From positions 62,001 to 126,000 of the IMG/VR virus record IMGVR_UViG_3300032163_000002: 64,000 nucleotides of DNA; one strand, written 5' to 3'. The translations under genes and the position numbers were made by a program. The stretch's first letter is position 1. Each line of letters starts with the position of its first letter. The notes below the pieces were generated by a model. That model saw only the letters and a program-made list of their open reading frames with translations. It searched no databases and was not told the DNA's origin. Positions 334 to 37,863 of the stretch are shown piece by piece. Source of the stretch: a virus.

Positions 334-362
334 AACTTACACCTGTAAGAATAAAAAGTCAA
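334..362 (-). promoter_or_regulatory. Promoter-operator cassette P1
   Basis: Read leftward: -35 TTGACT (357-362), 17-bp spacer, -10 TAAGTT (334-339). The palindrome CTTACAGGTGTAAG (336-349) overlaps the -10. The same arrangement recurs at P2 and P4-P8. A repressor bound here would block RNA polymerase. It drives the gene ending at 70, whose GTG lies at the expected transcription start. Confidence 0.85.
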
Positions 363-402
363 GGGAAAAAGAAAAGGGTAATAACCCACGAAACTGCTTA
401 CT

Positions 403-609
403 TTAGAAGGTTACTACCCCGTTTCCTTCTGCACGAACCGGGCCATATAGCCTGTGGGAAATTCTAGCGGGACGCTTCAAAGGGGGGACGAAGCGCTGCA
501 TTTGATGGTGAGGCGTTATGGCAGGACGAAGAACAGACGCTCGCAGGGCGAGCATGAGAAGTCCGCTCGCGCAGATCGAAGAAAACACGAAAATCGAAAT
601 ACGCCGCAT
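403..609 (-). CDS. Small membrane-anchored protein
   Basis: 68 residues from ATG 609, beginning MRRISIFVFSSICASGLLML. This is a single hydrophobic N-terminal segment followed by a basic, proline-rich tail, so it is likely a membrane anchor or uncleaved signal. The start was chosen because it follows the upstream TAG by one base and sits after GGTGG. A longer reading from 681 would overlap the upstream gene and lacks a ribosome site. Function unknown. Confidence 0.55.
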   Translation of the reverse strand: MRRISIFVFSSICASGLLMLALRASVLRPAITPHHQMQRFVPPLKRPARISHRLYGPVRAEGNGVVTF

Positions 610-610
610 T

Positions 611-1048
611 CTATTTCCACCACCAGTTTTTTGTACCACTGAGAAGAATCGAGTTACCGTGATCAGAGATAGTGAAAACATTAGGCCAAAACTTGTCTTT
701 ATCCATTTTTACTTTCAGTCCAAGCCGATCTCCAGTAAAGTACAACTTCCCGTACTGATACCAATGCTCGTCATCTCTACTAGCAATATCTCCACCTTCC
801 TGATAAAATTCGTCTTCCTCTTCCTCACGGATGGATTCCTTTTTCGGTCCACCTCCACGCGCATAATTTATAGGTTCCGCATGAAGTTTATACCCCGGTT
901 CAAGCTGCCTCTTGTCATCCTCAATGCACTTGTCACAATAATCCGATCCTTGATTCCACGGAACTTTACAGCACTTGCAACCTATGCACTGACGACTATT
1001 ATTATTTTTTTCCCTGATTTGCTTAAAGAGTTCGCTGAAAATTGTCAT
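611..1048 (-). CDS. Zinc-finger hypothetical protein
   Basis: 145 residues. Near the N-terminus a cysteine cluster (CIGCKCCKVPW, then CDKC) suggests a treble-clef or ribbon zinc site. The middle is acidic (EEEEDEFYQEGG). Start at ATG 1048, since AGGAG lies 6 nt upstream; an ATG at 1054 overlaps that site. It ends with TAG, one of the few amber stops used normally here. Possible nucleic-acid or protein binding; no specific family recognised. Confidence 0.7.
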   Translation of the reverse strand: MTIFSELFKQIREKNNNSRQCIGCKCCKVPWNQGSDYCDKCIEDDKRQLEPGYKLHAEPINYARGGGPKKESIREEEEDEFYQEGGDIASRDDEHWYQYGKLYFTGDRLGLKVKMDKDKFWPNVFTISDHGNSILLSGTKNWWWK

Positions 1049-1082
1049 GACCATCTCCTGTCAAGATAGTCCATTTCAAAAG

Positions 1083-1364
1083 TCAATTCCAGTGATCATG
1101 AGCCCACTCGGTCCACAAAACATGAAGTACTTCTTTGATTTGTTCTCGGTTAGGCATATGCATCTCCACGTCATTACGAGACGCCAAAGGCGCGGCACAT
1201 TGCCCACAAAAGATTTCGGCATTCTTCTCCGCAACGATACACCTTCCTGTCGGAGCTATGAGAACCGGCTCCTTGCACTGGCTGCATATATCCATTGAAG
1301 TACCAGAAACGGACCCGAGAGCGTTTGATTTCCGTACGCAGACAAGTATATTTTTGTCGTTCAT
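1083..1364 (-). CDS. Small zinc-ribbon protein
   Basis: 93 residues with two cysteine pairs, CSQC at about residue 27 and CGQC at about residue 53, spaced as in a zinc ribbon. Its ATG overlaps the stop of the upstream gene (ATGA), indicating coupled translation. Function unknown; small zinc ribbons are common in early phage regions and may bind host proteins or nucleic acids. Confidence 0.7.
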   Translation of the reverse strand: MNDKNILVCVRKSNALGSVSGTSMDICSQCKEPVLIAPTGRCIVAEKNAEIFCGQCAAPLASRNDVEMHMPNREQIKEVLHVLWTEWAHDHWN

Positions 1365-1879
1365 ACATCCTCTTTTAGATTTTCCGGTAGCGAAATTTGA
1401 AGTACAGCTTTCACAAACTCTTCCGGAGGAGCATACCCGTGAGCCTTGACATAATGGTAAATCATGTCCGGCGCCATGTAGACCACGCCCTCACCCACGA
1501 CGTAAATTTCCGATGCGCCCCCTTCGTCCTCATACCCCCACTGAACCGGATTCCGTATGCACTGCTTCAGTGCGATGAACGGACAAGGATGCCAGCCCAA
1601 CGTGTGATTGCAAGAAACGAGCCTCCAACCGTCACCCGTAGCACAAAGAAAATGGAGAGCGTTCAGAAATTCTTTGGACGGCGTAGCTGTAGGAATCGAG
1701 TGTTCTGCTGGATTCAGCCAGCCAATGTTCAGTGCCGGAAATTTCTTCAATTCCTCCCTGCGAAAACTCATAGGTGTCTTACCCTTGAGCCACTCCCACG
1801 ACACGGCCTTCTGCCAGTAAATCTCGTAGGGAGGATAGGGTTTGTCAGTATAAGGGGTAAGATCCGCAAAATAAGCCAT
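1361..1879 (-). CDS. Hypothetical protein
   Basis: 172 residues from ATG 1879, beginning MAYFADLTPYTDKPYPPYEI. The open frame extends upstream to 1975, but ATG 1879 has AAGGAG 8 nt away and overlaps the previous stop as TGATG, so it is the likely start. Rich in Trp, Tyr and Pro; one Cys-His-containing stretch (SCNHTLGWHPCPF). No family recognised. Confidence 0.7.
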   Translation of the reverse strand: MAYFADLTPYTDKPYPPYEIYWQKAVSWEWLKGKTPMSFRREELKKFPALNIGWLNPAEHSIPTATPSKEFLNALHFLCATGDGWRLVSCNHTLGWHPCPFIALKQCIRNPVQWGYEDEGGASEIYVVGEGVVYMAPDMIYHYVKAHGYAPPEEFVKAVLQISLPENLKEDV

Positions 1880-2127
1880 CAGGCTTTCTCCTTCGCCGCA
1901 AAAAAACGCCAAAGCTTCCACCATACCCGAATAAATATGTTCACTTTTCTTCTCCATACACAATGCCCGACGCACACATAAGGATTACGGTAAATAAGTA
2001 AACCTTCCTTGGTTGTGCCAATAAAAGTTGTGCTATTTTCAGAATCAGGTTCATTAGAAGGTTGAAAACCCTCCTGTGTTCGAAATGACATAGCTGCGTC
2101 AGGCCCAATCATGAAAAACCGTTTCAT
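1879..2127 (-). CDS. Hypothetical protein
   Basis: 82 residues, beginning MKRFFMIGPDAAMSF and ending in an aromatic, basic tail. It overlaps the upstream gene by ATGA and has GAGGTGG as ribosome site. The preceding genes of this transcript come from promoter cassette P2. No domain recognised. Confidence 0.65.
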   Translation of the reverse strand: MKRFFMIGPDAAMSFRTQEGFQPSNEPDSENSTTFIGTTKEGLLIYRNPYVCVGHCVWRRKVNIFIRVWWKLWRFFAAKEKA

Positions 2128-2528
2128 GGCACCCCACCTCTTTCTACTGAAATTTTTACCCGAAGCTTTTTGAGCGCCTCTTCATCTATTTCTATTTCAG
2201 GAAATGGTGTGGAATTTTTCGGAACAAATTTACCATTTACTATATCCGCTGGTGCAGCAATAGATTCGCGGAGCTTTTTCGTTTCCTCTGACACGACATA
2301 CATTTCTTCTTCTTTAGATATGACTTCAAGAAGCGCTTTTATCGCTTCTTCGCTTTCTCTTATGCGCGCTTCTTCTTCAAGACTTCCTATCCTGCTCCCG
2401 GCACGCTCCTCCATAATAGGTGACGTATCTGCCATATTTTTGACTATGAGAACTTCTTTACGACGGTCCAGCACCCCATAATGCCGACGAGAGCCTGAGC
2501 TGTAGTCCCGCCGCCAAGGGCCACCCAT
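2124..2528 (-). CDS. Acidic coiled-coil hypothetical protein, probably leaderless
   Basis: 134 residues. Residues about 40-90 form a charged Glu/Lys-rich helix, likely a coiled coil. The ATG at 2528 lies 7 nt downstream of the -10 box of P2, so it should be at the 5' end of the mRNA. An internal ATG at codon 32 (MADTSPIM) is an alternative, but no clear ribosome site precedes it. Function unknown. Confidence 0.65.
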   Translation of the reverse strand: MGGPWRRDYSSGSRRHYGVLDRRKEVLIVKNMADTSPIMEERAGSRIGSLEEEARIRESEEAIKALLEVISKEEEMYVVSEETKKLRESIAAPADIVNGKFVPKNSTPFPEIEIDEEALKKLRVKISVERGGVP

Positions 2529-2534
2529 ACTCTT

Positions 2535-2563
2535 AACTTACACCTGTAAACTAAAAATGTCAA
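2535..2563 (-). promoter_or_regulatory. Promoter-operator cassette P2
   Basis: Leftward TTGACA (2558-2563), 17-bp spacer, TAAGTT (2535-2540). The operator TTTACAGGTGTAAG at 2537-2550 differs from the perfect palindrome at one outer base. The TGA stop of the upstream gene lies inside the -35 element. Transcription is expected to begin on ATG 2528. Confidence 0.85.
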
Positions 2564-3009
2564 GCCCTTTTTTTCGTTCGATTCACTATGGCACACCCCG
2601 ACATTAAACGTTCATGAACGTGCCGAACAAATTTCGTGCTGAACTTGTAATGCCCGGACACCTGCTTGTAAATTGTCTCTAAATCCGTGTCTGTCTTCTC
2701 TCGGGCTGCTTCGACAGCTAGATAAAGTTGAAGCTCAGTCCAGATTCGATTCCAGACCCGCATGCGGGGAATAACAAATGTCTTGCCACTATACAACGAA
2801 AGAAATTGTCGAAAAGTTTCAAGAGTAAACCCAAAACCAGCAAAATCCACAAGCTGTGGGCAAGCAGGAGACGCCAGCGCGATGAAAAGTCGAAGTGCAT
2901 CCTTCTCACTAATCTTGCTTGTGAAATATCTTGCAGAAATTTTCGGAAGTGGAGCGAAATCTGTGGCAAGAATTTCAATAGATTCCCTGATCTCCCTCTT
3001 CAATGTCAC
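2560..3009 (-). CDS. Hypothetical protein
   Basis: 149 residues, largely helical by composition, with a basic C-terminus. It overlaps the sigma-like gene upstream by ATGA, so the two are co-translated. The stop codon is embedded in the -35 of P2. A role linked to the sigma-like protein is possible from context only. Confidence 0.65.
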   Translation of the reverse strand: MTLKREIRESIEILATDFAPLPKISARYFTSKISEKDALRLFIALASPACPQLVDFAGFGFTLETFRQFLSLYSGKTFVIPRMRVWNRIWTELQLYLAVEAAREKTDTDLETIYKQVSGHYKFSTKFVRHVHERLMSGCAIVNRTKKRA

Positions 3010-3776
3010 GGCATTTCTCGATTTTTCAGAAGTTCAGGAACCTGAAGAATCGCATTACGAGCAAGATGCTCTCCGTATTGAATGATGAAAAATGGATCAG
3101 GAGGTTTCCATTGTGATCGAATAAGAGTAGGGGAAGGAAACCGACCTCGTAAACGTTGAAAAGCAGAAAAACGAACAGCCTCTCCCCACGGAGTCAACGC
3201 GTAAATATTCAAAGAATCCACCGCTTTTACGACCGCTGTCGGAAATGATTCCTCAAGAAACATCTCCTGCATCATCGGATCGGAGTTGTTAACTTCGTGA
3301 GGCTCTACCGCATCATCATCAGAGACATCTTCTTCACTAAGCGAAAGCGCCACACGCATCAAATGCTCTTCTTCCGGAAAGTCACCCTCATCATCTTCAC
3401 TTTGTGCGGTCCCATAAGACAAAAGAGAACCTTTTTTCAACCGAGCAAGCTCGCGGAACATAGAATATTTTGCCACAGAGTAAAGCACACGAAAAAGTAT
3501 ATCAGGACTAAGCGTATCCGTGAGGATAGCCAATTTTTTTGCGCTTCGATGAAACTCAAGAAGTGCCGCTTGCTCCAAATCCTCACGATCAGGAGAATTC
3601 CGCATACTTGCAAACTGGACAACGAAGACAGCTTTCGTCAAGTCGATAGCCGCGTGTATCCATACCTCGCTACGTTTGACTGAACGTGGAGCTTTTCGTA
3701 AATCCTGAAGAGCGTAAAATAACGTCAAGTTCCGAGTGCTAGCTACTGAAACCGCTCTGGACCTATTCACGCTCAC
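3006..3776 (-). CDS. Putative late-transcription sigma factor (T4 gp55-like region 2)
   Basis: 256 residues from GTG 3776, which has GGAGG 6 nt upstream. Residues about 60-120 hold DREDLEQAALLEFHRS followed about 30 residues later by LFRVLYSVAKYSMFRELARL. That order (an acidic DL..AAL motif, then an aromatic, basic helix) resembles sigma region 2 as in T4 gp55, the late sigma that recruits host RNA polymerase. An acidic linker (EDDEGDFPEEE) separates a C-terminal domain. Known: gp55-type proteins drive late transcription. Inferred: this one does the same. No region 4 is apparent in it. Confidence 0.45.
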   Translation of the reverse strand: MSVNRSRAVSVASTRNLTLFYALQDLRKAPRSVKRSEVWIHAAIDLTKAVFVVQFASMRNSPDREDLEQAALLEFHRSAKKLAILTDTLSPDILFRVLYSVAKYSMFRELARLKKGSLLSYGTAQSEDDEGDFPEEEHLMRVALSLSEEDVSDDDAVEPHEVNNSDPMMQEMFLEESFPTAVVKAVDSLNIYALTPWGEAVRFSAFQRLRGRFPSPTLIRSQWKPPDPFFIIQYGEHLARNAILQVPELLKNREMP

Positions 3777-3793
3777 GGGCAACCTCCACTATG

Positions 3794-3830
3794 AAAAAAG
3801 AGGGGCGTGGAGCAATATACTCCTCACCCC
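3794..3830 (-). terminator. Rho-independent terminator after the AT-hook gene
   Basis: Read leftward, a GGGGTGAGGAG / CTCCACGCCCC stem (3802-3830, one mismatch and one G-U pair, 7-nt loop) is followed by TCTTTTTT. It separates the AT-hook transcript from the sigma-like gene. Confidence 0.7.
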
Positions 3831-3854
3831 CCCCTTCCCGCAAGGGAAAGCACC

Positions 3855-4523
3855 TTAGAGAATCGCAGCCGCGCCAAGCACCGGAGGAAGGCCCTCACCA
3901 CCAAGCTTGAGGGACAGCACTTCGGCGTCAGTAACCGGAATGTCCCCCGGAATCTCCGGGACAACCGGAAGCCCCGTAGCCACCTTGATCGCACGAGCGG
4001 CTTCAGTTTCCGACGTGATCTTCCGAGGGCGCCCCCGACCGCGCTTGATCGGAATACCGTCCGACCCGAGTGTGACAGGCTTCGGGGGACGGCCACGACC
4101 GCGCTTGATCGGAATACCGTCCGGCCCGAGTGTGACAGGCTTCGGGGGACGGCCACGACCGCGCTTGACTGGGGCGCCAGCCACGACAGGCTTCGGGGGA
4201 CGGCCACGACCGCGCTTGACGGGGGCGCCAGCCACGACAGGCTTCGGGGGACGGCCACGACCGCGCTTGACGGGGGCGCCAGCCACGACCGGTAATGCAG
4301 ACACAGCCGCCGCAGGAGAAGAACCTGCAACAGCGGGAGTCTGCTGCCCCTGAGCGTACTTGTGGAGCGAAATGAACTCAGTTTGCGCCGCCGTCAGTGG
4401 ATGAACTCCACCAGAGATCCGACGCGCGATGTTCGAAAACATGAGGTAGGCGTAAGGGTTTGCCTCCATCGCCTGCGCGATGACATTAGAGGCGGCTTCG
4501 ATAGGGGTCAGGATCTTTTTCAT
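3855..4523 (-). CDS. AT-hook DNA-binding protein with five hooks
   Basis: 222 residues from ATG 4523, beginning MKKILTPIEAASNVIAQAME. The first ~90 residues form a helical domain. Five AT-hooks follow (each KRGRGRPPKP or KRGRGRPRK), three in 17-residue units and two in 20-residue units, then a C-terminal hydrophobic segment. AT-hooks bind the minor groove of AT-rich DNA. The protein could compact or silence DNA, like an H-NS or histone analogue, or take part in host takeover. GGAG precedes the start; it is coupled to the gene upstream and followed by a terminator. Confidence 0.8.
   Translation of the reverse strand: MKKILTPIEAASNVIAQAMEANPYAYLMFSNIARRISGGVHPLTAAQTEFISLHKYAQGQQTPAVAGSSPAAAVSALPVVAGAPVKRGRGRPPKPVVAGAPVKRGRGRPPKPVVAGAPVKRGRGRPPKPVTLGPDGIPIKRGRGRPPKPVTLGSDGIPIKRGRGRPRKITSETEAARAIKVATGLPVVPEIPGDIPVTDAEVLSLKLGGEGLPPVLGAAAIL
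4023..4292. repeat. Tandem coding repeat encoding AT-hooks
   Basis: Three 51-bp and two 60-bp units in the AT-hook gene, nearly identical at the DNA level (core ggacggccacgaccgcgctt). This suggests recent expansion by slippage or recombination. Confidence 0.85.
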
Positions 4524-4525
4524 GA

Positions 4526-4969
4526 TTACTTCTCTCCTTTTCTTTCCAGATTCATGATGTTCGTTACGGTTCCAAATTGAATCCACTTCGGGGCGTTTTC
4601 TCCTTCGGACCAAGAGACTACCATATATTTTCCGGGTTTCAAAATTCCAAGGTAAGATTTCGGGACAGACGCTACCGCTGAAGGCCGAGACTTGCTGTAG
4701 GAAATCCTGTATGAGGTATCGGCAGTGCCGTCCGAGGAAACCAGACGGATGAAGCCGGTATTCTTGTCGTAGAGCCAGATGATGTGACTCGGACGGCCCA
4801 ACGCGGCCAGTGCGTCACGAGTCAAGGTAATCTGCACTCCGTTTCTCGTTATCCTCACGTAAGGCTGCTCAAGCACGGCGTTGAGCGGAACCGGCAACTT
4901 CACAGGACGCCGCCTGCGCGCCCCACGTTTCGGCCCTATCATCACGTTAGAGACTTCCATTTCATTCAT
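4526..4969 (-). CDS. Hypothetical protein
   Basis: 147 residues. A basic segment (KRGARRRRPVKLPV) near the N-terminus precedes a beta-rich domain with the phrase ITRNGVQITLTRDAL. AAGGAAG lies upstream of ATG 4969, and the stop is 2 nt from the AT-hook gene start. Possible nucleic-acid binding from the basic patch; not recognised otherwise. Confidence 0.7.
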   Translation of the reverse strand: MNEMEVSNVMIGPKRGARRRRPVKLPVPLNAVLEQPYVRITRNGVQITLTRDALAALGRPSHIIWLYDKNTGFIRLVSSDGTADTSYRISYSKSRPSAVASVPKSYLGILKPGKYMVVSWSEGENAPKWIQFGTVTNIMNLERKGEK

Positions 4970-4984
4970 CTAAAAGCACTTCCT

Positions 4985-5230
4985 TTAGTCTTTGACCCTG
5001 CTCTGCCATTCTTCCTTTACCGCAGGCAGTAACCGCAGGATGTTCTCACCTTCACTGAGAATGATCTCTTCAAGTCGGGTTCTGGCTTCAACCCGAAGAC
5101 GCTCGAAACAAGCATCCTTTTCCTCCTGCGAGTTATCCGGGGCATCCTCCTCGAACCCCACGTCTGCACGAAAAAATTCGTAGTTACCGAGATTCACCGT
5201 TACCCCTAAACCGACCTTACATCGGGCCAT
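4985..5230 (-). CDS. Small hypothetical protein (NLGNYE motif)
   Basis: 81 residues. It carries VNLGNYEFFRADVGFE, a phrase I associate with a conserved small phage protein of unknown role, then a long C-terminal helix. ATG 5230 was chosen because GGAGG stands 5 nt upstream, which makes this a normally leadered gene of cassette P3. Confidence 0.7.
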   Translation of the reverse strand: MARCKVGLGVTVNLGNYEFFRADVGFEEDAPDNSQEEKDACFERLRVEARTRLEEIILSEGENILRLLPAVKEEWQSRVKD

Positions 5231-5243
5231 GCGCCCCTCCACG

Positions 5244-5278
5244 CTTACGAATGTAAGACTTCAAAAAGGAAAAGTCAA
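5244..5278 (-). promoter_or_regulatory. Promoter-operator cassette P3 (shifted register)
   Basis: Leftward TTGACT (5273-5278), 17-bp spacer, -10 TACATT (5250-5255). The operator CTTACATTCGTAAG (5244-5257) is displaced 8 bp relative to the other cassettes, so its other half-site forms the -10. The operator still covers the -10, which supports repressor binding rather than a fixed promoter sequence as the reason for its conservation. Confidence 0.75.
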
Positions 5279-5279
5279 G

Positions 5280-8686: not shown

Positions 8687-8687
8687 A

Positions 8688-22140: not shown

Positions 22141-23109
22141 CTACAAATTGATCTCATTCCGCTTCGCCAGATCGCAGACAATATTCCGCTCGTTCTGCGG
22201 CACGGCAGCGAGGAAGGAAAGCTTCACAGCACGCGAAAGCGAACCAAGAAAAATAGTGGCTTCGATTATGTTGTGAAGCATCCGCGTACTGAATGGAATG
22301 GTGAGTTCCATGCTACCGTCAAATGCCTTCCGATATTGCTGAAGGAAAGAAAAGATAGGCTCGATAGCTTTGAGCGGCAGGTCAAGATATTTTTTCGTGA
22401 TGATCTCACGCTCACGACTGATCTCGTTGTAGCCAACCTCGACGCGGTACGCGAAGCGGTTGAGTGAAGCGAAATTCTGTTGCTGCGTGCCAGCGTACAG
22501 GCCACGCGGGTCCGGGTTCACACCATCCGTGTTCCCCGTCGCCACACAGCGCCACTCTTTATTCGGACGAACGAATTCACTCGTCTCCGGAATATGGAGT
22601 GCGGGTGCATCCGACTCAAGAATCGGGTTAAGGAGCACGGTCGCGGCAGGCGAGCCCGTATCAAATTCGTCCAACAGATAGGTTGCCGGGCGCAAGACAC
22701 TCAGAGCGAGCGATCCGCGCCTGAACTGGAAAATGAGATGCTGCTTGCTTTCATCGGCGACAGCCGTATACGACCCGACGAGTTCGCTTCTAGCAATATG
22801 CTCGTCGAGATTCTGTCTCACGAGTTCTTTCGATCGTCTCGCACAAAACTGCACGACATGCGCCGTCTTGCCAGTGCCCGTATGCCCGTAGAGATACGTG
22901 TGCTTTCCCAGCACCTCTCCGAGAATGAGCGCCTCAAGAACCTGCGGCTGAAACATGAAAGCCGGGTCTACCTTCGGAACAAGTACCCGGTGGGGCTCGT
23001 CTTCGGAATGAGTGTAAACCCACAGCGAGAGATTACGAACCGACGAACTTAGCTCCGTAACCTCCGGAAAGAGTTCCGAGACTTTACGTGCGGTTTTCGT
23101 AATCGCCAT
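22141..23109 (-). CDS. MoxR/CobS-type AAA+ ATPase
   Basis: 322 residues. Walker A GHTGTGKTAH at about residue 85, Walker B TYLLDEFDTGSP, sensor-1-like VATGNTDG, and an arginine-rich C-terminal lid. First gene of cassette P4, with CAGGAGG as ribosome site and a 25-nt leader. It should form a hexamer that works on the VWA protein encoded directly downstream. Ends in TAG. Confidence 0.85.
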   Translation of the reverse strand: MAITKTARKVSELFPEVTELSSSVRNLSLWVYTHSEDEPHRVLVPKVDPAFMFQPQVLEALILGEVLGKHTYLYGHTGTGKTAHVVQFCARRSKELVRQNLDEHIARSELVGSYTAVADESKQHLIFQFRRGSLALSVLRPATYLLDEFDTGSPAATVLLNPILESDAPALHIPETSEFVRPNKEWRCVATGNTDGVNPDPRGLYAGTQQQNFASLNRFAYRVEVGYNEISREREIITKKYLDLPLKAIEPIFSFLQQYRKAFDGSMELTIPFSTRMLHNIIEATIFLGSLSRAVKLSFLAAVPQNERNIVCDLAKRNEINL

Positions 23110-23134: not shown

Positions 23135-23163
23135 AACTTACACCTGTAAGTTAAAAAAGTCAA
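23135..23163 (-). promoter_or_regulatory. Promoter-operator cassette P4
   Basis: Leftward TTGACT (23158-23163), 17-bp spacer, TAAGTT (23135-23140), operator CTTACAGGTGTAAG (23137-23150, perfect palindromic arms). It drives the AAA/VWA/polymerase/SSB/uvsX stretch. A normal leader with a strong ribosome site follows. Confidence 0.88.
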
Positions 23164-26488: not shown

Positions 26489-28093
26489 TCATACGCTAGT
26501 TTTCTCCGCTTTATTGTTGGGCCAGAGGAATTCTTGGTCTTCCCCGTCGTCATCATCGTATTGCTCCAACGATGCCGTAACAGGTTGCTGCTGTGCGACA
26601 CCGCTCTCGTACACGGAAATGGTTGAGAAAATCTTCTCGTCTTCGTAAACCTTCAATCGCGCCTTGAAATGTTTGAGCAAATAAGGATTCGTCAAATCAA
26701 GAAAATCTATGACCTCAAGCGAATGCCCTCCTTCCTTGATACGAAGTCCGCGCCCGATCCGCTGCATCACCCGCACAAAGCTTTTTGTTGGAGCCGCAAG
26801 AATGACCACATCAAGATCAGGAACATCGGTGCCTTCATCAAAAATAACCGTGGAGACAAGAATTGAAAGCGCCCCGCTTCGAAGATCAGCTACGGCCTTG
26901 TTGACAATACTCCGGTAAGACACGGAAGCCATATCTTTTCGTGCAATGAAAATGGCAGGGGGGAGAGTCGGATCACCTTTTTTCAAAGCTACATATTCAG
27001 CTTCAAGATTCCGAACCAATTTAACGCTAAAGCCCCCGACGACCAGAACCCGCTTTCCAGTCTTCGCCCGCTCCACAGCAAGCTCCATGATCCTTCGGGA
27101 CCGGCCTTCATTGCCAATGATCAGGTAGTTCAGGGCCTCCCGCCAGTTGTAATGACTGCACCCTGCGGGCTCTGAGACCTCGTAGACGATCAACCCAGCC
27201 TGTGCCAGCTTACCTTGCCTCTGAAGCCGTTCAGGCGGAACATCGACCAACAGGGGGCCTGTGCAGCCCATCAGGACCAGATCCGTCTCCTCATCCTTCG
27301 TGAAGGGGGTGCCGGACATGCCGACTCTAACCTGAGCCGGACAAGCGTCGAGAATCGCCCTGAAGGTGCGATCACCCTTTCCAACCCGATGGGCTTCGTC
27401 AGCTATCACAACGCGACTCTCCCGTAGAAGAGACAAAACGTAGGGGTCTCTAACGTAGAGCCGGGAAGCCAGCGTGTCAATGCTCCCGATGAGAAACTTC
27501 CCCGGTTTGTTGGTCTCGGCCATGATGATGCCAACACGCTCAGATCCGAGAAACTCGCAGAATCGTTCGTAGGTTTGGTCCACAAGCTGTTGTCCATGAA
27601 CGAGTACAAGGGTCGGGACATCGAAAGCATGAGCTATCATCGCTCCCACAAGGGTCTTACCGCCCCCGGTCGCAATCCGAAGAACGCCACGCTGATCACC
27701 GGGGTAGTTGGCCCGGAGAACCCTCTTGACAGCGTCTACCTGATAGTCCCACGGAGTCAGTGACCCGAACGGCCCGGTAATGGGGTTGACGACGGGTAAG
27801 AACTCAAAACCTTCCGGCATGAAAAGTTCGACCGGAAATCCTGCTTTCGTGAGAGCTTCCGTAACTAAAGACAAAACACCTGAAGGAAATGCCCCTCCTG
27901 TACTTAACAGATGAAGCTTTCCATCCCAACGTTTCTGCTTATAAGCTGTTGTCCAGAAATAACCTTTCTTGTAGCAGGAGGTTACTTCGTCAACAATATT
28001 ACGGGGATATCGGCTTAGAAACCTCGCGCGCTGCGCCCCAACCAGAATGTTCATTTTTGTTCCAAGCGGAAGAGGAAGCTGCACAGCAGGCAT
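26489..28093 (-). CDS. UvsW-like SF2 DNA/RNA helicase
   Basis: 534 residues. An N-terminal domain with YPRNIVDEVTSCYKKGYFW and QKRWDGKLHLL resembles UvsW. Motifs follow: I IATGGGKTLVGA, II VVIADEAHRVG, III GMSGTPF, V DEGTDVPDLD, VI MQRIGRGLRIKEGG. UvsW-type enzymes regress forks and unwind R-loops, switching from origin to recombination-dependent replication. The ATG is 7 nt from the -10 of P5, so leaderless translation is likely; an internal ATG at codon 14 is a weaker alternative. Confidence 0.88.
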   Translation of the reverse strand: MPAVQLPLPLGTKMNILVGAQRARFLSRYPRNIVDEVTSCYKKGYFWTTAYKQKRWDGKLHLLSTGGAFPSGVLSLVTEALTKAGFPVELFMPEGFEFLPVVNPITGPFGSLTPWDYQVDAVKRVLRANYPGDQRGVLRIATGGGKTLVGAMIAHAFDVPTLVLVHGQQLVDQTYERFCEFLGSERVGIIMAETNKPGKFLIGSIDTLASRLYVRDPYVLSLLRESRVVIADEAHRVGKGDRTFRAILDACPAQVRVGMSGTPFTKDEETDLVLMGCTGPLLVDVPPERLQRQGKLAQAGLIVYEVSEPAGCSHYNWREALNYLIIGNEGRSRRIMELAVERAKTGKRVLVVGGFSVKLVRNLEAEYVALKKGDPTLPPAIFIARKDMASVSYRSIVNKAVADLRSGALSILVSTVIFDEGTDVPDLDVVILAAPTKSFVRVMQRIGRGLRIKEGGHSLEVIDFLDLTNPYLLKHFKARLKVYEDEKIFSTISVYESGVAQQQPVTASLEQYDDDDGEDQEFLWPNNKAEKTSV

Positions 28094-28099: not shown

Positions 28100-28128
28100 A
28101 ACTTACACCCGTAAGAGAAAAAAGTCAA
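28100..28128 (-). promoter_or_regulatory. Promoter-operator cassette P5
   Basis: Leftward TTGACT (28123-28128), 17-bp spacer, TAAGTT (28100-28105), operator CTTACGGGTGTAAG (28102-28115). It drives the UvsW-like gene, whose ATG 28093 is at the expected transcription start. It is back to back with a rightward promoter at 28138. Confidence 0.85.
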
Positions 28129-28137
28129 GAGATACCC

Positions 28138-28166
28138 TTGACAGTCAAACGTATTGAACCTAAGTT
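28138..28166 (+). promoter_or_regulatory. Rightward sigma-70-type promoter of a putative small RNA
   Basis: TTGACA (28138-28143), exactly 17 bp, TAAGTT (28161-28166): the same boxes as the leftward cassettes but without the CTTACA palindrome, so it should be free of the shared repressor. The expected start is near 28173. Confidence 0.65.
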
Positions 28167-28172
28167 ACAGGC

Positions 28173-28246: not shown

Positions 28247-28249
28247 TCC

Positions 28250-29238: not shown

Positions 29239-29259
29239 GACGTTATCATTCCTCCCACA

Positions 29260-29272: not shown

Positions 29273-29283
29273 AGATAATCCTT

Positions 29284-29772
29284 TCACGAGCTATCTTTGT
29301 TAAGCGCCTTGAATCGTGTCAGCGTCTTTAATTTATGCTGTATCGGGCGTAACCCCTCACGAAGACGACGCCGATTGATCGCAGCACAAATTGACAAGTA
29401 ATTTGCTGTGTGACAAGACTCACACCGACAACCTCGTTGATACCGCGCGCAAGTCCCATGCTGAGACAGTGCCCGTTTTATTCCAGCTTCTGTTACACGC
29501 AACCGACTAACATGAGCAATACGTCTGACTGCTACTCCAGTTATAGGCTCATTTTTTTCACGCAACAATTTCATGGCATTTTCAAAGCGCTTGTTTCGAG
29601 CATATTGAGAAGCATGAAAGCGAGCAAGAACAGCCTGCTCCTCCTGTCCAGCCCGTGTAACGATTTGTCGAACCCGCTCACGACTTATTTCAAATTGACG
29701 GCCTATCGCAGAAAGCGGTGCGCCTTTCAAAGCCAATTCAATAATCAGCATTTCACGAGTCTTGTTAACCAT
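29284..29772 (-). CDS. Sigma-region-4-like HTH protein with zinc motif
   Basis: 162 residues. KGAPLSAIGRQFEISRERVR followed by QIV is a close match to the sigma-70 region 4 helix-turn-helix that reads -35 boxes. After a helical linker, HGTCARYQRGCRCESC introduces a zinc-binding Cys cluster of the kind found in many small phage DNA-binding proteins. It could act on promoters, including the cassettes described here. Start at ATG 29772. Confidence 0.6.
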   Translation of the reverse strand: MVNKTREMLIIELALKGAPLSAIGRQFEISRERVRQIVTRAGQEEQAVLARFHASQYARNKRFENAMKLLREKNEPITGVAVRRIAHVSRLRVTEAGIKRALSQHGTCARYQRGCRCESCHTANYLSICAAINRRRLREGLRPIQHKLKTLTRFKALNKDSS

Positions 29773-29779
29773 ACTTCAT

Positions 29780-31216: not shown

Positions 31217-31218
31217 AA

Positions 31219-31999: not shown

Positions 32000-32475
32000 A
32001 CTTTTTTCTTCTCACCAAGAATAATCTTTTCAACTTGGTCGTCACTCAACCCTCGCCAACGACACCACCGAATAACACAACCCACTTTGAAATTGAGCCA
32101 CACATTTTCACAGGCATGTTTCACAAGCTCAAAAGCTGCCCGCCAGTAACTACCGTACCACGCACGAACTAAACACCACAGATTAAGCTGCCATATAGGT
32201 TCTACTTTTATTCCCCGATCCTGAAATACACGAAGCCCCCGCAAGGCATTCTCCCACGGAACAGAGTAAACAGGATATCGACGGTTCACTTCAATACTCC
32301 GCGTTTTCATGCTGCATATCTTGCACACTACACGCCGCTTGTGACCTGCAAAAACGCCATGACAAGAACAGCACTCATTCCAATAATTGCCGTTCTCGTG
32401 CTTAAAATCTTCAGGCCAATCCCGTTCCGTTGCTTTCCAGTCCCGTTCATTTACTTTGTAAGAAGAATCAGCCAT
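31996..32475 (-). CDS. Zinc-ribbon phage protein
   Basis: 159 residues. NGNYWNECCSCHGVFAGHKR followed by CKIC is a zinc-ribbon pattern common in phages (GNY...C..C...F.GHKRR..C..C). The C-terminal part is Trp-rich. Overlaps the upstream alpha-CTD-like gene. Function unknown. Confidence 0.7.
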   Translation of the reverse strand: MADSSYKVNERDWKATERDWPEDFKHENGNYWNECCSCHGVFAGHKRRVVCKICSMKTRSIEVNRRYPVYSVPWENALRGLRVFQDRGIKVEPIWQLNLWCLVRAWYGSYWRAAFELVKHACENVWLNFKVGCVIRWCRWRGLSDDQVEKIILGEKKKV

Positions 32476-33085
32476 TTTTCGTTACCTCAAATAATTTGTT
32501 CTTTTCATAAATCGCCTGTACCCAACTGGCAGAAAGACCAAAGCGCTTTCCAATCAAACCGTATGCTTCTCCCTTATTGCGAGCTTTAACGATTTCGTGA
32601 TCCCTTTCTTTTCTTGCCGGAGCACCAAGTGCCCGAACAGAAAGTACCGGAATCACACGACGCTTCGGAAATCTGGTATTAAGCATGCACTCTCTATTAT
32701 GAAAATATTGACTCTCATGCTTCGGATTGAACGAAACCCCACAGCCTTCACACTGTCGCAAACGTGCCCCGCAAGTAGGACACACCGAACCACCCTCCGC
32801 AGAGGGCTTCTTGTATCGTTTTTCCAGCCCCGTTTCATATCCTGTAACAATCGGTAATTGAACACCATACCTCTTCAATATACAACACAGTAACTGATGC
32901 GAATTCTCCCCAAAATTACGAAGGAGAAACATTGCCCTCCATTGCAAACCATCTCGGTAAAGAAGACACCCCGTAGATGTACGCGCAAGGTCTAAAGTCG
33001 TTTTCAAATTGGCACTACGCAAACAATTTTTTAAGCGCTCCGTCAAATCGAGTTCTTCCAAAACGATAGATTTCTGCTCAACCAT
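32468..33085 (-). CDS. Alpha-CTD-like, zinc-ribbon and HTH transcription protein
   Basis: 205 residues. Residues 8-75 resemble the RNA polymerase alpha subunit C-terminal domain: LEELDLTERLKNCLRSANLK, then TLDLARTS, and LLRNFGENSHQLLCCILKRY (compare the LxLxxRxxNCL and LGxxSLxEI...L blocks of RpoA). The middle has CPTCGARLRQCEGC and another Cys/His pair (zinc). The C-terminus has YGLIGKRFGLSASWVQAIYE, an HTH like sigma region 4. Known: alpha-CTD binds UP elements and activators. Inferred: a phage factor that engages promoters or host polymerase. Confidence 0.55.
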   Translation of the reverse strand: MVEQKSIVLEELDLTERLKNCLRSANLKTTLDLARTSTGCLLYRDGLQWRAMFLLRNFGENSHQLLCCILKRYGVQLPIVTGYETGLEKRYKKPSAEGGSVCPTCGARLRQCEGCGVSFNPKHESQYFHNRECMLNTRFPKRRVIPVLSVRALGAPARKERDHEIVKARNKGEAYGLIGKRFGLSASWVQAIYEKNKLFEVTKNG

Positions 33086-34034
33086 GAAATTCTCCCGGAA
33101 TTTCTTTATAGATTTTTCCGATCACGCCTGTCTTCATATCTCCAACAAGACTCGGGGGCCAATAAAAAGTTCCGATTGCATGCCCGAGCAATGGGCGTTC
33201 GGACAAATATGTTTTGAAGTGTCCCCGCCGCAAATGCACCCCGATTAAAACTTTTTGCTGTGTCGCGCGGCGGATCTCGTCTTCAGAAAGAATTCGCTGT
33301 GTGCCGGGCACTCTAATTCGCAAAGTGTGATAACGAAGATACAGAAGACCACCACGGCGCACATGTTTCTTCGACAACTTCTCCGGAGGATTGATCTCCT
33401 CCGGCAAAACATTTCGACAGGATAAAAGCCCCTGAAAAAATAAAGCGACGTGACAAGAAGCGGGCACAGAGATATCCCCGAGACGTATATCCGTATCCGG
33501 CACGGTTAAATCATCGAGCTGAGAAACGAATTCTCCTCGATAAGTGTAAGCTGTACGTAAAACCCGTCCATCCTTTTCAAGCACAGCAATCATTGTCACA
33601 GTCGGCTGAATGACAATATTCCCCGCTTCAATAAACGGAACTAGTACCTGAATCCACCGTGCCCCGGCTATAAAATGCTGCCATAAAACGACACCTGCCG
33701 GGTCAAGGAACTCAGGACACATAAAGTGGTCAGGTGTAATTTGCTGCTGGTCAAACGTCACAATAGCCACAGCAGAGCATGCACCTTTCTCGTGCCATTC
33801 ATACCACACATTTTGATACGGCGGAGCAGCAGGTGGAATATCATAGATAGAAGTTTGAGCGATAACGGGAAACGTCTGTAACCCGTGGGCATGCTGAAAA
33901 TGTTCAAGCGCAAGTGGAAATACGGACGTACATTCGAAACTCTGGAATAACCCTCTCGGTGCAGACGGAAAAGTGCCAAACGGTATGACAACTTCAGTCA
34001 TCCGGTCAAGAAGGAGCGTTCGGTAGCTGCTCAC
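33078..34034 (-). CDS. Conserved phage hypothetical protein
   Basis: 318 residues from GTG 34034: AAGGAAG lies 7 nt upstream and GTGA overlaps the upstream stop. The C-terminus contains VHLRRGHFKTYLSERPLLG and GTFYWPPSLVG, a pattern (RGHFK...G.YWW) I have seen in unassigned phage proteins. Beta-rich. Function unknown. The frame is open to 34193, inside the methyltransferase-like gene. Confidence 0.7.
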   Translation of the reverse strand: MSSYRTLLLDRMTEVVIPFGTFPSAPRGLFQSFECTSVFPLALEHFQHAHGLQTFPVIAQTSIYDIPPAAPPYQNVWYEWHEKGACSAVAIVTFDQQQITPDHFMCPEFLDPAGVVLWQHFIAGARWIQVLVPFIEAGNIVIQPTVTMIAVLEKDGRVLRTAYTYRGEFVSQLDDLTVPDTDIRLGDISVPASCHVALFFQGLLSCRNVLPEEINPPEKLSKKHVRRGGLLYLRYHTLRIRVPGTQRILSEDEIRRATQQKVLIGVHLRRGHFKTYLSERPLLGHAIGTFYWPPSLVGDMKTGVIGKIYKEIPGEFHG

Positions 34035-34618
34035 CGAAAATCTTCCTTCCACGCGCTTATCCAACCACCGCAAGCAAGGAAAGGACGAAACACGCGCTTT
34101 AGCTTCCGAATTTCCACGAGGTTGTCCACACAGATGCTCGACCAAATATCGAAGTAGATCGTGTCGTAGCGCGTGCCTCGCTTTGGACGCCACTTAAAAA
34201 TGTCGGCCACGACAACACGCATACCCAGCGGAAGCGAGGGGTTCACGAGCGTCACAACATCAGGATATTTCTCGACAACTGTGATCTCGGTGACGTTCTT
34301 TTTCTTGGCGAGCGCATGCAAGACAAGCCCGATACCGAGCCTGGCGACCAGAACTCGACCATGCGCCTCTTCCACGATTTCACGGTTCGTCCGCTTCTCC
34401 ATCTGTGTGTCGCTCATCACAAGCTCACCATTCACCTTGAGCATGACGTAGCGACCCAGCGACACTAAAGCATCGCGCCTCCCGTGGATCATGGTGTGCA
34501 GATTAGCGAACCGCACGTCCTGCTCCGAAAGAGTGAAATGCGTCACCTCAGCGACCCCAGCCTTGCCCGGAGGCAGGAGTGTCGTCATGGTCTTCGGGAA
34601 ACCTGCGGAAGCGTCCAT
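34031..34618 (-). CDS. SAM-dependent methyltransferase/spermidine-synthase-like protein, leaderless
   Basis: 195 residues from ATG 34618. Motif I region VLVARLGIGLVLHALAKK, acidic strand 2 end VTEITVVEKYPDVV, then VVVADIFKW and YDTIYFDIW follow the order of class I SAM-binding folds of the spermidine-synthase type. Motif I has Ala-Arg-Leu-Gly instead of a clear GxGxG, so catalysis is uncertain. The ATG sits 8 nt from the -10 of P6; the longer frame to 34654 is just translated promoter sequence. Confidence 0.65.
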   Translation of the reverse strand: MDASAGFPKTMTTLLPPGKAGVAEVTHFTLSEQDVRFANLHTMIHGRRDALVSLGRYVMLKVNGELVMSDTQMEKRTNREIVEEAHGRVLVARLGIGLVLHALAKKKNVTEITVVEKYPDVVTLVNPSLPLGMRVVVADIFKWRPKRGTRYDTIYFDIWSSICVDNLVEIRKLKRVFRPFLACGGWISAWKEDFR

Positions 34619-34625
34619 AAGGGAT

Positions 34626-34654
34626 AACTTACACCCGTAAGAGAAGAATGTCAA
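34626..34654 (-). promoter_or_regulatory. Promoter-operator cassette P6
   Basis: Leftward TTGACA (34649-34654), 17-bp spacer, TAAGTT (34626-34631), operator CTTACGGGTGTAAG (34628-34641). Transcription should begin at ATG 34618 or one base before. Confidence 0.87.
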
Positions 34655-34657
34655 GAG

Positions 34658-35230
34658 CTATTTCGCTATACCCCTGTCATCTTTTATCGACCCCTCTGGC
34701 GGAAACTCCACCGCTCGTGCCCGACGAGCCTCGATTAACAGTGCCCTCACATCGGCCCGTGCCTGTGCAGGATAGGCAACGAAACGCCTCTCAATCTCCA
34801 AGAGGATTTCCTCGCTCATCCTCCCGCTCGCGGGTAAAGGCGGGACGGAAGAAACGCAGGGATACCCAGCAAGCCGCTCTCCGACACGAGGCTCCAGTGG
34901 GGAGGCAGATTCGCGCCACTCCATCAAAGCTTTATTGTCGTCCGACACCACCCGCCATGCTCCACGCGGTTTTACAGGCGAGGATGAGGAGGAAGGAGCT
35001 GGCTTATTCATTTTGAAAACAAGTTCTGCCATGTTGCATAAAGCGTTCAGCTCTGGCAGCCCAATCGTAGTGCAGTTGTTTTTTTCGTCACGTCCTATTT
35101 TTCTGATGCAGTCAATTTGCTCCTGTGTTAAAACTGCCTTGAAAATAGGACGGGTACATATACAACCCGGCTCCAAGCAACCAAGTCCAGTATGAGTGGT
35201 ATGAATACAGTAAGAACACAATTCGATCAT
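34658..35230 (-). CDS. Hypothetical protein with N-terminal Cys motif
   Basis: 190 residues. CSYC, then CLEPGCICTR, suggests a zinc-binding N-terminus. A Ser/Pro-rich linker separates it from a helical, Arg-rich C-terminal domain (ADVRALLIEARRARA). TTGGAG precedes ATG 35230. The TAG stop borders the -35 of P6. Not recognised. Confidence 0.65.
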   Translation of the reverse strand: MIELCSYCIHTTHTGLGCLEPGCICTRPIFKAVLTQEQIDCIRKIGRDEKNNCTTIGLPELNALCNMAELVFKMNKPAPSSSSSPVKPRGAWRVVSDDNKALMEWRESASPLEPRVGERLAGYPCVSSVPPLPASGRMSEEILLEIERRFVAYPAQARADVRALLIEARRARAVEFPPEGSIKDDRGIAK

Positions 35231-35233
35231 TTT

Positions 35234-35488
35234 TCACTCCAAGAATTTCTCGAATGCCTTTTCGAGTTTTGCAAAGCCTGTATGGTCATACAACCGCTGC
35301 ATCATTACCGACTGGCACGGCATTTCCATGTGCGCCAAATAAAACCAGTGCTGACGTTGAGCGGTATCCTCGGGAGCATTCGAAAAGAAAAACATCCAAG
35401 AATCGTTCTTTTCCTTGTTGGAAATCAAATTCTTTGCTGTGTGCAGAATGATTGCAGCGGCCATACGGCGATAAGGAAGATCGTTCAT
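35234..35488 (-). CDS. Small hypothetical protein
   Basis: 84 residues; helical, with the phrase YRRMAAAIILHTAKNLISNK. ATGA overlap with the upstream gene. Function unknown. Confidence 0.65.
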   Translation of the reverse strand: MNDLPYRRMAAAIILHTAKNLISNKEKNDSWMFFFSNAPEDTAQRQHWFYLAHMEMPCQSVMMQRLYDHTGFAKLEKAFEKFLE

Positions 35489-35805
35489 GGTTTTTCCTCA
35501 ACATAAGGCCAAACAGGAGGAGCAGGCAAAGGCATCCACGCACGTACTTTCCGACCTGTGTTTCCGAAAAGAGAACCTTCTGAGCGCCAGTAACCGGAAT
35601 AAAACACAGTCTTACCATCTTTCTTTTGATTTTTTGGGGGTTTTTCAAAAGTGTCAATGAAAATGGAATGCTCATCCCACACTAAAAAGCAACCGCCGTA
35701 ATGTTGATAACTTCCTTTTTCAAATGTCACTTTCAAATCTGGCAAATCTGGCTGCCGTACAGAAGCATCAATCCAACCAAGATCCGATTCTCGGTCAACC
35801 ATCAT
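35485..35805 (-). CDS. DUF551-like protein
   Basis: 106 residues. GWIDASVRQPD near the N-terminus and KVRAWMPLPAPPVW near the C-terminus are the hallmarks of DUF551, a small phage family of unknown role. The start overlaps the upstream stop. Confidence 0.7.
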   Translation of the reverse strand: MMVDRESDLGWIDASVRQPDLPDLKVTFEKGSYQHYGGCFLVWDEHSIFIDTFEKPPKNQKKDGKTVFYSGYWRSEGSLFGNTGRKVRAWMPLPAPPVWPYVEEKP

Positions 35806-36122
35806 TGAGAAACGACCTCCTCACCAAGCTCATCATCGAAAATCAGTTCTCCAAGCCCTTCAATTTTTCCATACCACACCGGACTACGAAGATTCAAGGA
35901 TGCCTCCGATACAGTCTGCCGCAAGGCAAACATGATACACGCAGGGTTTCTTACTTGTGCTCCCCAAGATCCACCGAAAACTTTGGTATCCCGATCTTCG
36001 ATCTCAATGGCAATAGGCATGAAGGGAGTGGGAACACCCATTCGATATTTGCTGGTGAAATAAGGGTTCACAGGAGACTTCAAATAGAATGTCTTACCAC
36101 AACGGTCAATCTTTCGTCGCAT
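35802..36122 (-). CDS. Hypothetical protein
   Basis: 106 residues. Basic N-terminus, beta-rich centre (FMPIAIEIEDRDTKVF), acidic end. Overlaps neighbours on both sides. Not recognised. Confidence 0.6.
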   Translation of the reverse strand: MRRKIDRCGKTFYLKSPVNPYFTSKYRMGVPTPFMPIAIEIEDRDTKVFGGSWGAQVRNPACIMFALRQTVSEASLNLRSPVWYGKIEGLGELIFDDELGEEVVSQ

Positions 36123-36369
36123 CGGGGGCCTCCGTCTTCACGGCAGCCGCCTCCAGTTGGGCGGCCTGTTTCAAGAGTCGTCGCCTCCGGATCGGATGCC
36201 ACCACGGTACGCCGAGCGCCATCGCGCGACAAACTGCCGCGATTTGGATGCCAAACTCTTTAACAGTGATTGGATAAAGGCCCCCTTCAGCATCTTCTTC
36301 TAGAACACGGTCGATGTGATCTGCCAGCCCTTCAATTCGGCGCTTAGTCATCTCGTCAATTTCGCTCAT
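36106..36369 (-). CDS. Hypothetical protein
   Basis: 87 residues from ATG 36369, with AGAGAAGAG upstream; the frame extends to 36471 but without a better start. Helical, with WWHPIRRRRLLK in the second half. Function unknown. Confidence 0.6.
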   Translation of the reverse strand: MSEIDEMTKRRIEGLADHIDRVLEEDAEGGLYPITVKEFGIQIAAVCRAMALGVPWWHPIRRRRLLKQAAQLEAAAVKTEAPDATKD

Positions 36370-36652
36370 CTCTTCTCTTTTTTTGCAACTCTCGTCGCGT
36401 CGCGCGAGATAGCGGTTGGGCGGGCGCTTCCCCCGCCGAGGGCTCAACCACCCTACTTTCATTCCGGTCATCGGTGTTGCTCAACAATGACTCTCCGGGC
36501 GTCTCTATTCGGAGCTTACGGCGTCGCTGGACCCTCTTGTTGATGTCTTCTCGGGAATCCCTGTGCGGCGAGTCTGTCGCCACTCGCAACCGCATAATCA
36601 TTTCGTCGCCCGGCGCGTCATGTTTTTCTCGGACTTCCTCTTCGTTTTTCAT
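36356..36652 (-). CDS. Highly charged hypothetical protein
   Basis: 98 residues with about 40% Glu/Asp/Lys/Arg, likely disordered (VQRRRKLRIETPGES, ATRRELQKKRRDERN). TAATG overlap with the leaderless gene upstream. Function unknown. Confidence 0.6.
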   Translation of the reverse strand: MKNEEEVREKHDAPGDEMIMRLRVATDSPHRDSREDINKRVQRRRKLRIETPGESLLSNTDDRNESRVVEPSAGEAPAQPLSRATRRELQKKRRDERN

Positions 36653-36882
36653 TAGCAGTCCAGCACGATGTGAACGAAACCCTTACGTAACCGTGACTGC
36701 CCACAACGTATGCGCTGTCGGAGTCTCATGTCTTCAGACACCCTCCAGCCCATCGAAGTGCCAGAAGGCTGAATGGAGTCAGCGAAAGCCTTCACCTGTT
36801 CGTTCGTCCAGTCAGAAGGGACGCAGACCTGTATGGCCAGAGGACGAGCTTGAATCAGCGTAGGCTTCGGCTTCGAGTCCAT
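36652..36882 (-). CDS. Hypothetical protein, leaderless
   Basis: 76 residues from ATG 36882, which is 8 nt from the -10 of P7; the frame upstream is translated promoter. Contains a run LAIQVCVPSDWTNEQVKAFA and a basic C-terminal half. Not recognised. Confidence 0.65.
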   Translation of the reverse strand: MDSKPKPTLIQARPLAIQVCVPSDWTNEQVKAFADSIQPSGTSMGWRVSEDMRLRQRIRCGQSRLRKGFVHIVLDC

Positions 36883-36889
36883 GCCCGAT

Positions 36890-36918
36890 AACTTACATCC
36901 GTAAGAAGCGAATGTCAA
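36890..36918 (-). promoter_or_regulatory. Promoter-operator cassette P7
   Basis: Leftward TTGACA (36913-36918), 17-bp spacer, TAAGTT (36890-36895), operator CTTACGGATGTAAG (36892-36905). Start codon at 36882. Confidence 0.87.
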
Positions 36919-36990
36919 GGACTTTTTCGCTATGCTTTGAAAAAAATAGAACCGAAGTTGAAATTTACACCTAGCAGAGTTTCATATTTT

Positions 36991-37041
36991 TTTACACTTC
37001 ACTTTTCTTTACACTTCACTTTTCTTTACACTTCACTTTTT
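36991..37041. repeat. Three 17-bp iteron-like direct repeats
   Basis: TTTACACTTCACTTTTC at 36991-37007 and 37008-37024, with a third copy at 37025-37041 differing only in its last base. Head to tail with no spacer, in AT-rich non-coding DNA. This is typical of replication iterons or protein-binding arrays. Confidence 0.85.
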
Positions 37042-37155
37042 CTATTCTTCAAAAAGATAGAATTTGTTGACCGACAGTGATTTATGCGGAGCGAAGCGAA
37101 GCCTAACCACGTAAGGGGGGAGATTCCCAAGTGCGAAGCACGAAGGGATTCGGGG

Positions 37156-37184
37156 GGAATACGCCTGCCAGAATGGCGTGTCAA
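37156..37184 (-). promoter_or_regulatory. Second type of leftward promoter
   Basis: TTGACA (37179-37184), 17 bp, TATTCC (37156-37161). The spacer contains GCCATTCTGGC, a small palindrome unrelated to CTTACA, so this promoter would answer to a different regulator. It points into the iteron region, which has no gene before P7. Confidence 0.4.
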
Positions 37185-37378
37185 GTACTATCTTTCGACA
37201 GCATCTAAGTAGTATAAAACACAATGATTTAGACGTGTATCGAAAAGTTACACATTGATCACACCCCCTGTTTTCTTACGGCAAAAACGCTTCTTTGCAG
37301 CCCCCGACCGCATGTAATGCATGATGGCTAAGTGCTTGTTTGCCGTACCATCGCTTTTAAGCCGATTCGCTCTCCAAA

Positions 37379-37410
37379 GGCCCTAACTGCAAAGCTTTAC
37401 AGTCAGGGCC
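37379..37410 (-). terminator. Terminator of the gene at 37429-37803
   Basis: Minus-strand GGCCCTGACTG / CAGTTAGGGCC, an 11-bp stem with one G-U pair and a 10-nt loop, followed by TTTGG. It ends the short P8 transcript 19 nt after its stop codon. The U-run is short. Confidence 0.65.
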
Positions 37411-37428
37411 TCTCAACCTTTCATGGCC

Positions 37429-37803
37429 TCAGTCCGCCGGGGAAGCGCCGCGCACCTCCAACTTGGCGAACTCGATGATCTTGGAGTACTTTGCGATCTG
37501 TTCCGGGGTCAGAAGACTCTTGTCGATGTCCGTCCGCTTCGACGGAATGGCCTGCACAACACCTTCCGGGGTCGTGAAGCTGGACACATCCGCCTCGATG
37601 AGAGCAGTCCCCAGCCGGGCAACGAGGGCCTTCTCCTTGTCTTCGAGCTGATGTTTGAGACTCCGGACCTCGACCAGCTCCTTGATGTTTTCGGTCACAT
37701 CCTTTCGGACAGTCTGCTTGAAGCCGCCTTTCTTCGCAGCTTCCAGTAGTGCAGCCTTATCCAGCGTAGGGGTGGCCTCGGTAACGTGTTTCTGGCTCGA
37801 CAT
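37429..37803 (-). CDS. Hypothetical early protein in its own transcript
   Basis: 124 residues beginning MSSQKHVTEATPTLDKAALL. Helical with a central charged coiled coil (KHQLEDKEKALVARLG). It is the only gene between P8 and a terminator, and has a 31-nt leader with AGGAGG. A gene expressed alone from a repressor-controlled promoter beside the early/late divide could be regulatory, but no DNA-binding motif was recognised. Confidence 0.75.
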   Translation of the reverse strand: MSSQKHVTEATPTLDKAALLEAAKKGGFKQTVRKDVTENIKELVEVRSLKHQLEDKEKALVARLGTALIEADVSSFTTPEGVVQAIPSKRTDIDKSLLTPEQIAKYSKIIEFAKLEVRGASPAD

Positions 37804-37834
37804 AGTCTGGTTCCTCCTTTTCCTTTCAATCTAT

Positions 37835-37863
37835 AACTTACATCTGTAAGATCGAAAAGTCAA
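37835..37863 (-). promoter_or_regulatory. Promoter-operator cassette P8
   Basis: Leftward TTGACT (37858-37863), 17-bp spacer, TAAGTT (37835-37840), operator CTTACAGATGTAAG (37837-37850). Divergent from the rightward late promoter at 37891. Confidence 0.87.

Follow-up and report, generated by a model that had tools for sequence, protein, structure and literature searches.

The 141,027 bp IMG/VR virus record IMGVR_UViG_3300032163_000002 contains, dispersed through its early, DNA-metabolism genes, a short promoter-like cassette in which a 14 bp palindrome overlies the -10 hexamer. Eight such cassettes had been described from the letters alone (the sequence-only reading) in a 64,000 nucleotide stretch, bases 62001-126000 of the record, which is referred to here as the window; coordinates are in window numbering unless marked 'genome'. 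All eight were recovered, on the minus strand, and the scan of the whole record that had been recommended as a check found another four before the window begins, at genome 39249, 42088, 51449 and 58523. The 12 cassettes, termed class I, span genome 39-100 kb, are without exception on the minus strand and within the early region, and each lies immediately 5' of an open reading frame (ORF). Their consensus in the promoter direction, cTTGAC(T/A)TTtt...(C/T)TTACRRRTGTAAGTTat, comprises a -35 element (TTGAC(T/A)), a 17 bp spacer and a -10 element (TAAGTT), with the palindrome extending from -22 to -9; the geometry is exact in 11 of the 12, and the TTGAC core is intact in all. As read from the sequence, this is a coordinated regulon, with one site found at many promoters and tied to the starts of transcription units.

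The palindrome is exact (CTTACNNNNGTAAG) in seven of the eight window cassettes, the site at 2537 having a single mismatch on the promoter strand (TTTAC...GTAAG). Across the genome, ten exact copies of CTTAC-N4-GTAAG and two TTTAC variants make up the 12 cassettes; every exact copy adjoins a promoter, and there are no free-standing copies. In 60 Markov-simulated genomes the palindrome occurred on average 0.07 times (maximum 1), as against 10 observed, and the joint cassette (TTGAC-N8-palindrome), observed 11 times, did not occur at all. When all 5-mer dyads with gaps of 0-20 were compared, none was as strongly over-represented as this palindrome, with 10 copies where 0.127 were expected; its left half, CTTAC, shows no variation at 10 of the 12 sites despite falling within the spacer. 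Allowing two mismatches, by contrast, yielded 29 matches in the window where 18.9 were expected, hence only exact or near-exact palindromes carry signal. Differences between the flanks had been taken to mean that the cassettes are not recent copies, and flanks are indeed mostly at background identity; however, the pair at genome 39249 and 85137 shares 15 of 25 upstream bases, for which about 0.02 instances would be expected among the 66 pairs, and a few cassettes may be related by duplication.

Independent support for the cassettes being promoters comes from the positions of the predicted ORF starts, which lie 6-31 nt past the -10 at every class I site. These fall into two groups: the farther starts, mostly preceded by a Shine-Dalgarno sequence, and five ATG codons just 6-7 nt past the -10 that have none (cassettes at genome 42088, 64537, 90102, 96628 and 98892). 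Relative to a background of 1.5%, defined as how often an ORF of 41 codons or more that begins with ATG is found at that spacing, such starts are strongly enriched, being present at 5 of the 12 class I promoters (P ~6e-7) and at 6 of 18 when the class II promoters described below are included (P ~2e-7). A TANNNT motif about 12 bp before the start codon is a signature of leaderless bacterial genes (PMC3160421), suggesting that these five class I genes produce leaderless mRNAs. The call is less certain for the helicase ORF 26489-28093, which has a second in-frame ATG 45 nt past the -10, while the ATG associated with the palindrome at 336 (genome 62336), at 9 nt, is near the leaderless range and outside the distances tested. 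As the predicted +1 is downstream of the palindrome, the latter would lie upstream of the transcript and act as a DNA site; a reading of it as an RNA hairpin was rejected on these grounds, and an Rfam search of the window returned no match.

The cassette at 5244 (P3) had been singled out as an anomaly, with its palindrome shifted by 8 bp, the left half supplying a -10 of TACATT, and the -10 nevertheless covered. This description holds: the palindrome is 8 bp further downstream than at the other sites, and the 17-spaced -10 is retained. The operator also looks to be inverted as well as shifted, as its centre, ATTC when read along the promoter, becomes GAAT on the opposite strand (CTTACGAATGTAAG), whereas the other 11 sites share an asymmetric RRRT. 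A random centre would match RRRT solely when inverted with a chance of about 1 in 32, so the inversion is suggestive and no proof. A palindrome that has moved and flipped, yet still lies over the -10, behaves as a repressor operator would, and is hard to fit to a promoter consensus or to a rigid activator contact; the exception therefore argues for protein binding. A shared regulon with a protein-binding palindrome at its promoters, as originally proposed, is well supported by the copy number, the exclusive link to promoters, the fixed geometry and this shifted and inverted exception.

A further set of at least six promoters, termed class II, lies outside the window and spans genome 28-42 kb (loci L006 and L007); the sites are at genome 30505, 31829, 33661, 34874, 40634 and 41527, and a degenerate one is found at 28047. 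These have the sequence cTTGACTTTCTGTAATAARTAACC followed by TATATT or TATCTT, and hence have the -35 element and 17 bp spacing in common with class I, but they lack the palindrome, their -10 is better and their conserved spacer is a different one. Since cTTGACT-17-TANNNT occurs here without the palindrome, promoter and palindrome are separable, and the early region is, to judge from these motifs, divided between two cis-codes. Two rightward promoter-like sites in the window had been predicted to escape control; both do lack the palindrome (Table 1), although class II means that they are not the only ones. A search upstream of the late genes found no clear motif, and none comparable to those of class I or II.

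Table 1. Cassettes, palindrome-free promoter-like sites and candidate regulatory genes in the window
Feature	Position	Strand	Details
Class I cassette	334..362	-	TTGACT; palindrome 336-349 (CTTACAGGTGTAAG, promoter strand); TAAGTT; ORF 70-324 begins 9 nt past -10
Class I cassette	2535..2563	-	TTGACA; palindrome 2537-2550 (TTTACAGGTGTAAG); TAAGTT; leaderless-type ORF 2124-2528, ATG 6 nt past -10
Variant cassette P3	5244..5278	-	TTGACT-17-TACATT (5250-5278); palindrome 5244-5257; ahead of ORF 4985-5230 (Shine-Dalgarno GGAGG) and the genes below it
Class I cassette	23135..23163	-	TTGACT; palindrome 23137-23150; TAAGTT; ORF 22141-23109 (MoxR-type AAA), Shine-Dalgarno AGGAGG; DNA polymerase and UvsX-type genes further downstream
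Class I cassette	28100..28128	-	TTGACT; palindrome 28102-28115; TAAGTT; leaderless-type helicase ORF 26489-28093, ATG 6 nt past -10
Class I cassette	34626..34654	-	TTGACA; palindrome 34628-34641; TAAGTT; leaderless-type ORF 34031-34618, ATG 7 nt past -10
Class I cassette	36890..36918	-	TTGACA; palindrome 36892-36905; TAAGTT; leaderless-type ORF 36652-36882, ATG 7 nt past -10
Class I cassette	37835..37863	-	TTGACT; palindrome 37837-37850; TAAGTT; ORF 37429-37803, Shine-Dalgarno AGGAGG
Palindrome-free promoter-like site	28138..28166	+	TTGACA-17-TAAGTT, rightward
Palindrome-free promoter-like site	37891..37920	+	TTGACA-18-TAAGGT, ahead of rightward terminase and portal genes
Candidate regulator	32468-33085	-	RpoA-CTD-like N-terminus (E 1.1e-6); helix-turn-helix near C-terminus; downstream of 34626 cassette
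Candidate regulator	29284-29772	-	Sigma-70 region 4-like helix-turn-helix (E 4.8e-6); downstream of 34626 cassette
AT-hook protein, DNA-binding candidate	3855-4523	-	Repeated KRGRGRPPKP unit; downstream of 5244 cassette

Pfam and PHROG scans of 128 proteins from the early region recovered functions in replication, recombination and nucleotide metabolism, including UvsX, DnaB-type and other helicases, primase and SbcCD. Searches of the genome for HTH_3, TetR_N, RHH_1, MazE, Peptidase_S24 and Phage_integrase, with family models including PF00589, PF01381 and PF00717, were all negative at E<=1, and neither serine integrase nor partition genes were present among the Pfam matches of the early-gene proteins, the sole set scanned. 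The lack of an integrase or of any tested repressor family argues against a temperate silencing system, and the phage is probably virulent. Among the called genes, that at 32468-33085 encodes the only match to a helix-turn-helix pattern. The predicted structures of two candidate regulators were too poor for use (mean predicted local distance difference test scores of 43 and 40), and impressions of 4526-4969 as AbrB-like and of 3006-3770 as sigma-like were unsupported.

No relatives of the virus were found using its DNA polymerase or one late-region protein, and the capsid protein identified distant ones only, of which none that was searched for the palindrome contains a cassette. The nearest useful one, an 83 kb genome with a 43% identical capsid protein (G003), has TTGACA-17-TATACT promoters without palindromes, but is too distant for this non-conservation to count as a refutation. 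When 2.9 million virus contigs were scanned for the patterns of the cassette and of class II, no second regulon came to light; the matches inspected mostly share the same near-identical, coding-like flanks, and none recurs within its own stretch except for a pair in an unrelated GC-rich contig (L100). There, a divergent pair of TTGACA-N7-CTTACGGTTGTAAG has the same promoter-operator geometry, with an HTH_3 (Cro/CI-type) gene directly downstream of one copy (E 1.8e-12), which suggests by analogy that a Cro/CI-type dimer can act through an arrangement of this kind. When one cassette was compared with phages by BLAST, the matches were weak (E ~4); that in Rhodothermus phage RM378 has a promoter-like CTTGACTTTT...TATGTT from which the palindrome is absent.

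On balance, we think it somewhat probable that a single dimeric repressor uses the palindromes as its operators and sets the timing of early genes, rather than serving lysogeny. In such a scheme each of 12 sigma-70-type promoters, cTTGAC(T/A)-17-TAAGTT, would bear one 14 bp operator, YTTACRRRTGTAAG, over -22 to -9, and a single dimeric DNA-binding protein occupying it would mask the -10 and block formation of the open complex. All class I units, comprising the helicase, the MoxR-type AAA gene, the replication region and a large number of small early genes, would then respond together, firing early and being jointly turned down as the protein accumulates, perhaps with its own synthesis limited in the same way, while class II would be outside the control of this operator. 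Protein binding, repression rather than activation, and the role in timing are all inferred. The original proposal that one repressor silences all early units would accordingly need narrowing: a common regulon stands, but the six or more class II promoters lack the palindrome, and no tested repressor or integrase family was found.

Several observations weigh against timing by a repressor. The shifted case rests on a single site, the +1 positions and temporal class are deduced from sequence alone, and no classical repressor emerged from the Pfam and PHROG scans of the 128 early-region proteins. The distant relatives G003, L010 and L011 are without the palindrome, and no close relative was found in which its conservation might be compared with that of the -10. 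The weak -10, TAAGTT, would also fit an activator-dependent promoter. If these were activated middle promoters, TAAGTT would be rescued by a phage activator or a sigma-appropriating factor bound to the palindrome, and class II would be the immediate-early set; the near-consensus -10 of class II (TATATT or TATCTT), the distinct conserved spacers of the two classes and the sigma-70 region 4-like protein encoded at 29284-29772 are all in keeping with this. The virus also resembles T4 in its capsid, portal and recombination genes, and in having two conserved host-sigma-type promoter classes in the early region. In T4 middle promoters, however, the MotA box takes the place of the -35, whereas the present cassettes keep their -35 and have the site over the -10 itself, and a shift of 8 bp combined with inversion is usually incompatible with rigid contacts between activator and polymerase; activation is consequently judged unlikely. 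A pure promoter consensus, in which the palindrome is an extended -10 or spacer favoured by a polymerase that the phage has modified and no further protein binds it, draws on the overlap of the right half with TAAGTT and on the plus-strand site at 28138, which suggests that TAAGTT may itself be a preferred -10. The invariance of CTTAC within the spacer of 10 of the 12 sites, and the movement and flipping of the entire palindrome at 5244, leave this explanation with hardly any credence.

Other alternatives retain a repressor but assign it a different origin or purpose. Palindromes over the -10 are typical of LexA-, Cro/CI- or TetR-like host repressors, and a site of this type would allow the phage to read the state of its host; the lack of a phage-encoded candidate from the tested families favours this, but a virulent phage would gain little if 12 of its early units were repressed by the host, and we regard it as distinctly unlikely. 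An immunity regulon of a temperate phage, like that of mycobacteriophage L5 and cluster A, where one repressor silences dispersed prophage sites, would account for many copies of one site at early promoters and for their sharing one strand, that of the early genes; L5 sites are likewise aligned with transcription (PMC9283540). Those sites are nevertheless asymmetric 13-mers, bound by monomers and also found in intergenic positions away from promoters (PMC9283540), unlike the 14 bp palindromes observed here, which are at promoters only with no free-standing, stoperator-like copies; the genome also has no detectable integrase, HTH_3 or S24 domain, which makes a regulon of this kind very unlikely. 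A dimeric-type palindrome over the promoter is reminiscent of lambdoid Cro/CI (HTH_3) operators, but these cluster at one switch, by contrast with 12 single sites distributed over 60 kb, and no HTH_3 protein was found. The suggested likeness to BlaI, MecI and CopY operators, based on a TAC...GTA palindrome over the promoter, does not survive comparison: the TACANNTGTA core, with A/T beside it, is present in only 4 of the 12 sites and fails in the other 8, where the sixth base is usually G, and no such repressor was seen in the phage.

A number of other features of the genome were observed. Among genes of the class I region is one for an S-adenosylmethionine lyase-like protein (genome 51820-52332, L007:11820-12332, minus strand; E 2.4e-8), S-adenosylmethionine lyase being a typical anti-restriction early gene. 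A relative of adenylosuccinate synthetase (genome 54394-55572, L007:14394-15572, minus strand) has PurZ as its best PHROG family, but its product retains the WGDEGKG aspartate of PurA, where the PurZ of S-2L has a serine, one of the distinguishing residues. Small early proteins encoded at genome 44635-45319 and 51527-51817 have in common an N-terminal MKxxSxLxEKLIE-like motif, and the products of genome 39272-39931 and 61134-61856 a C-terminal VEDLLxxARExLL motif, either of which is a possible common tag. Intein or homing endonuclease domains are found in three late genes, namely a putative terminase large subunit (38411-41773, plus strand), a T4-like portal (41809-44748, plus strand) and a gp25-like baseplate wedge protein (60193-61818, minus strand). 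A direct repeat is common to the two genome ends (1-200 and 140828-141027) and apparently falls in a repetitive stretch, suggesting that the record either is a complete circle or was broken inside the repeat.

Coordinated control by a shared operator is a familiar principle, here in an unfamiliar phage. The best-known dispersed regulons with a single operator belong to temperate phages, mycobacteriophage L5 among them, and a large phage lacking a detectable integrase or known repressor, in which promoters can be placed by leaderless starts, represents a directly testable case of early timing. It is a tentative and still doubtful proposition that a large virulent phage times its early genes through a genome-wide, single-operator regulon, with a binding protein of an undescribed family and with the two cis-codes defining two coordinately controlled sets of genes. 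The regulon itself offers a route to an undescribed regulator.

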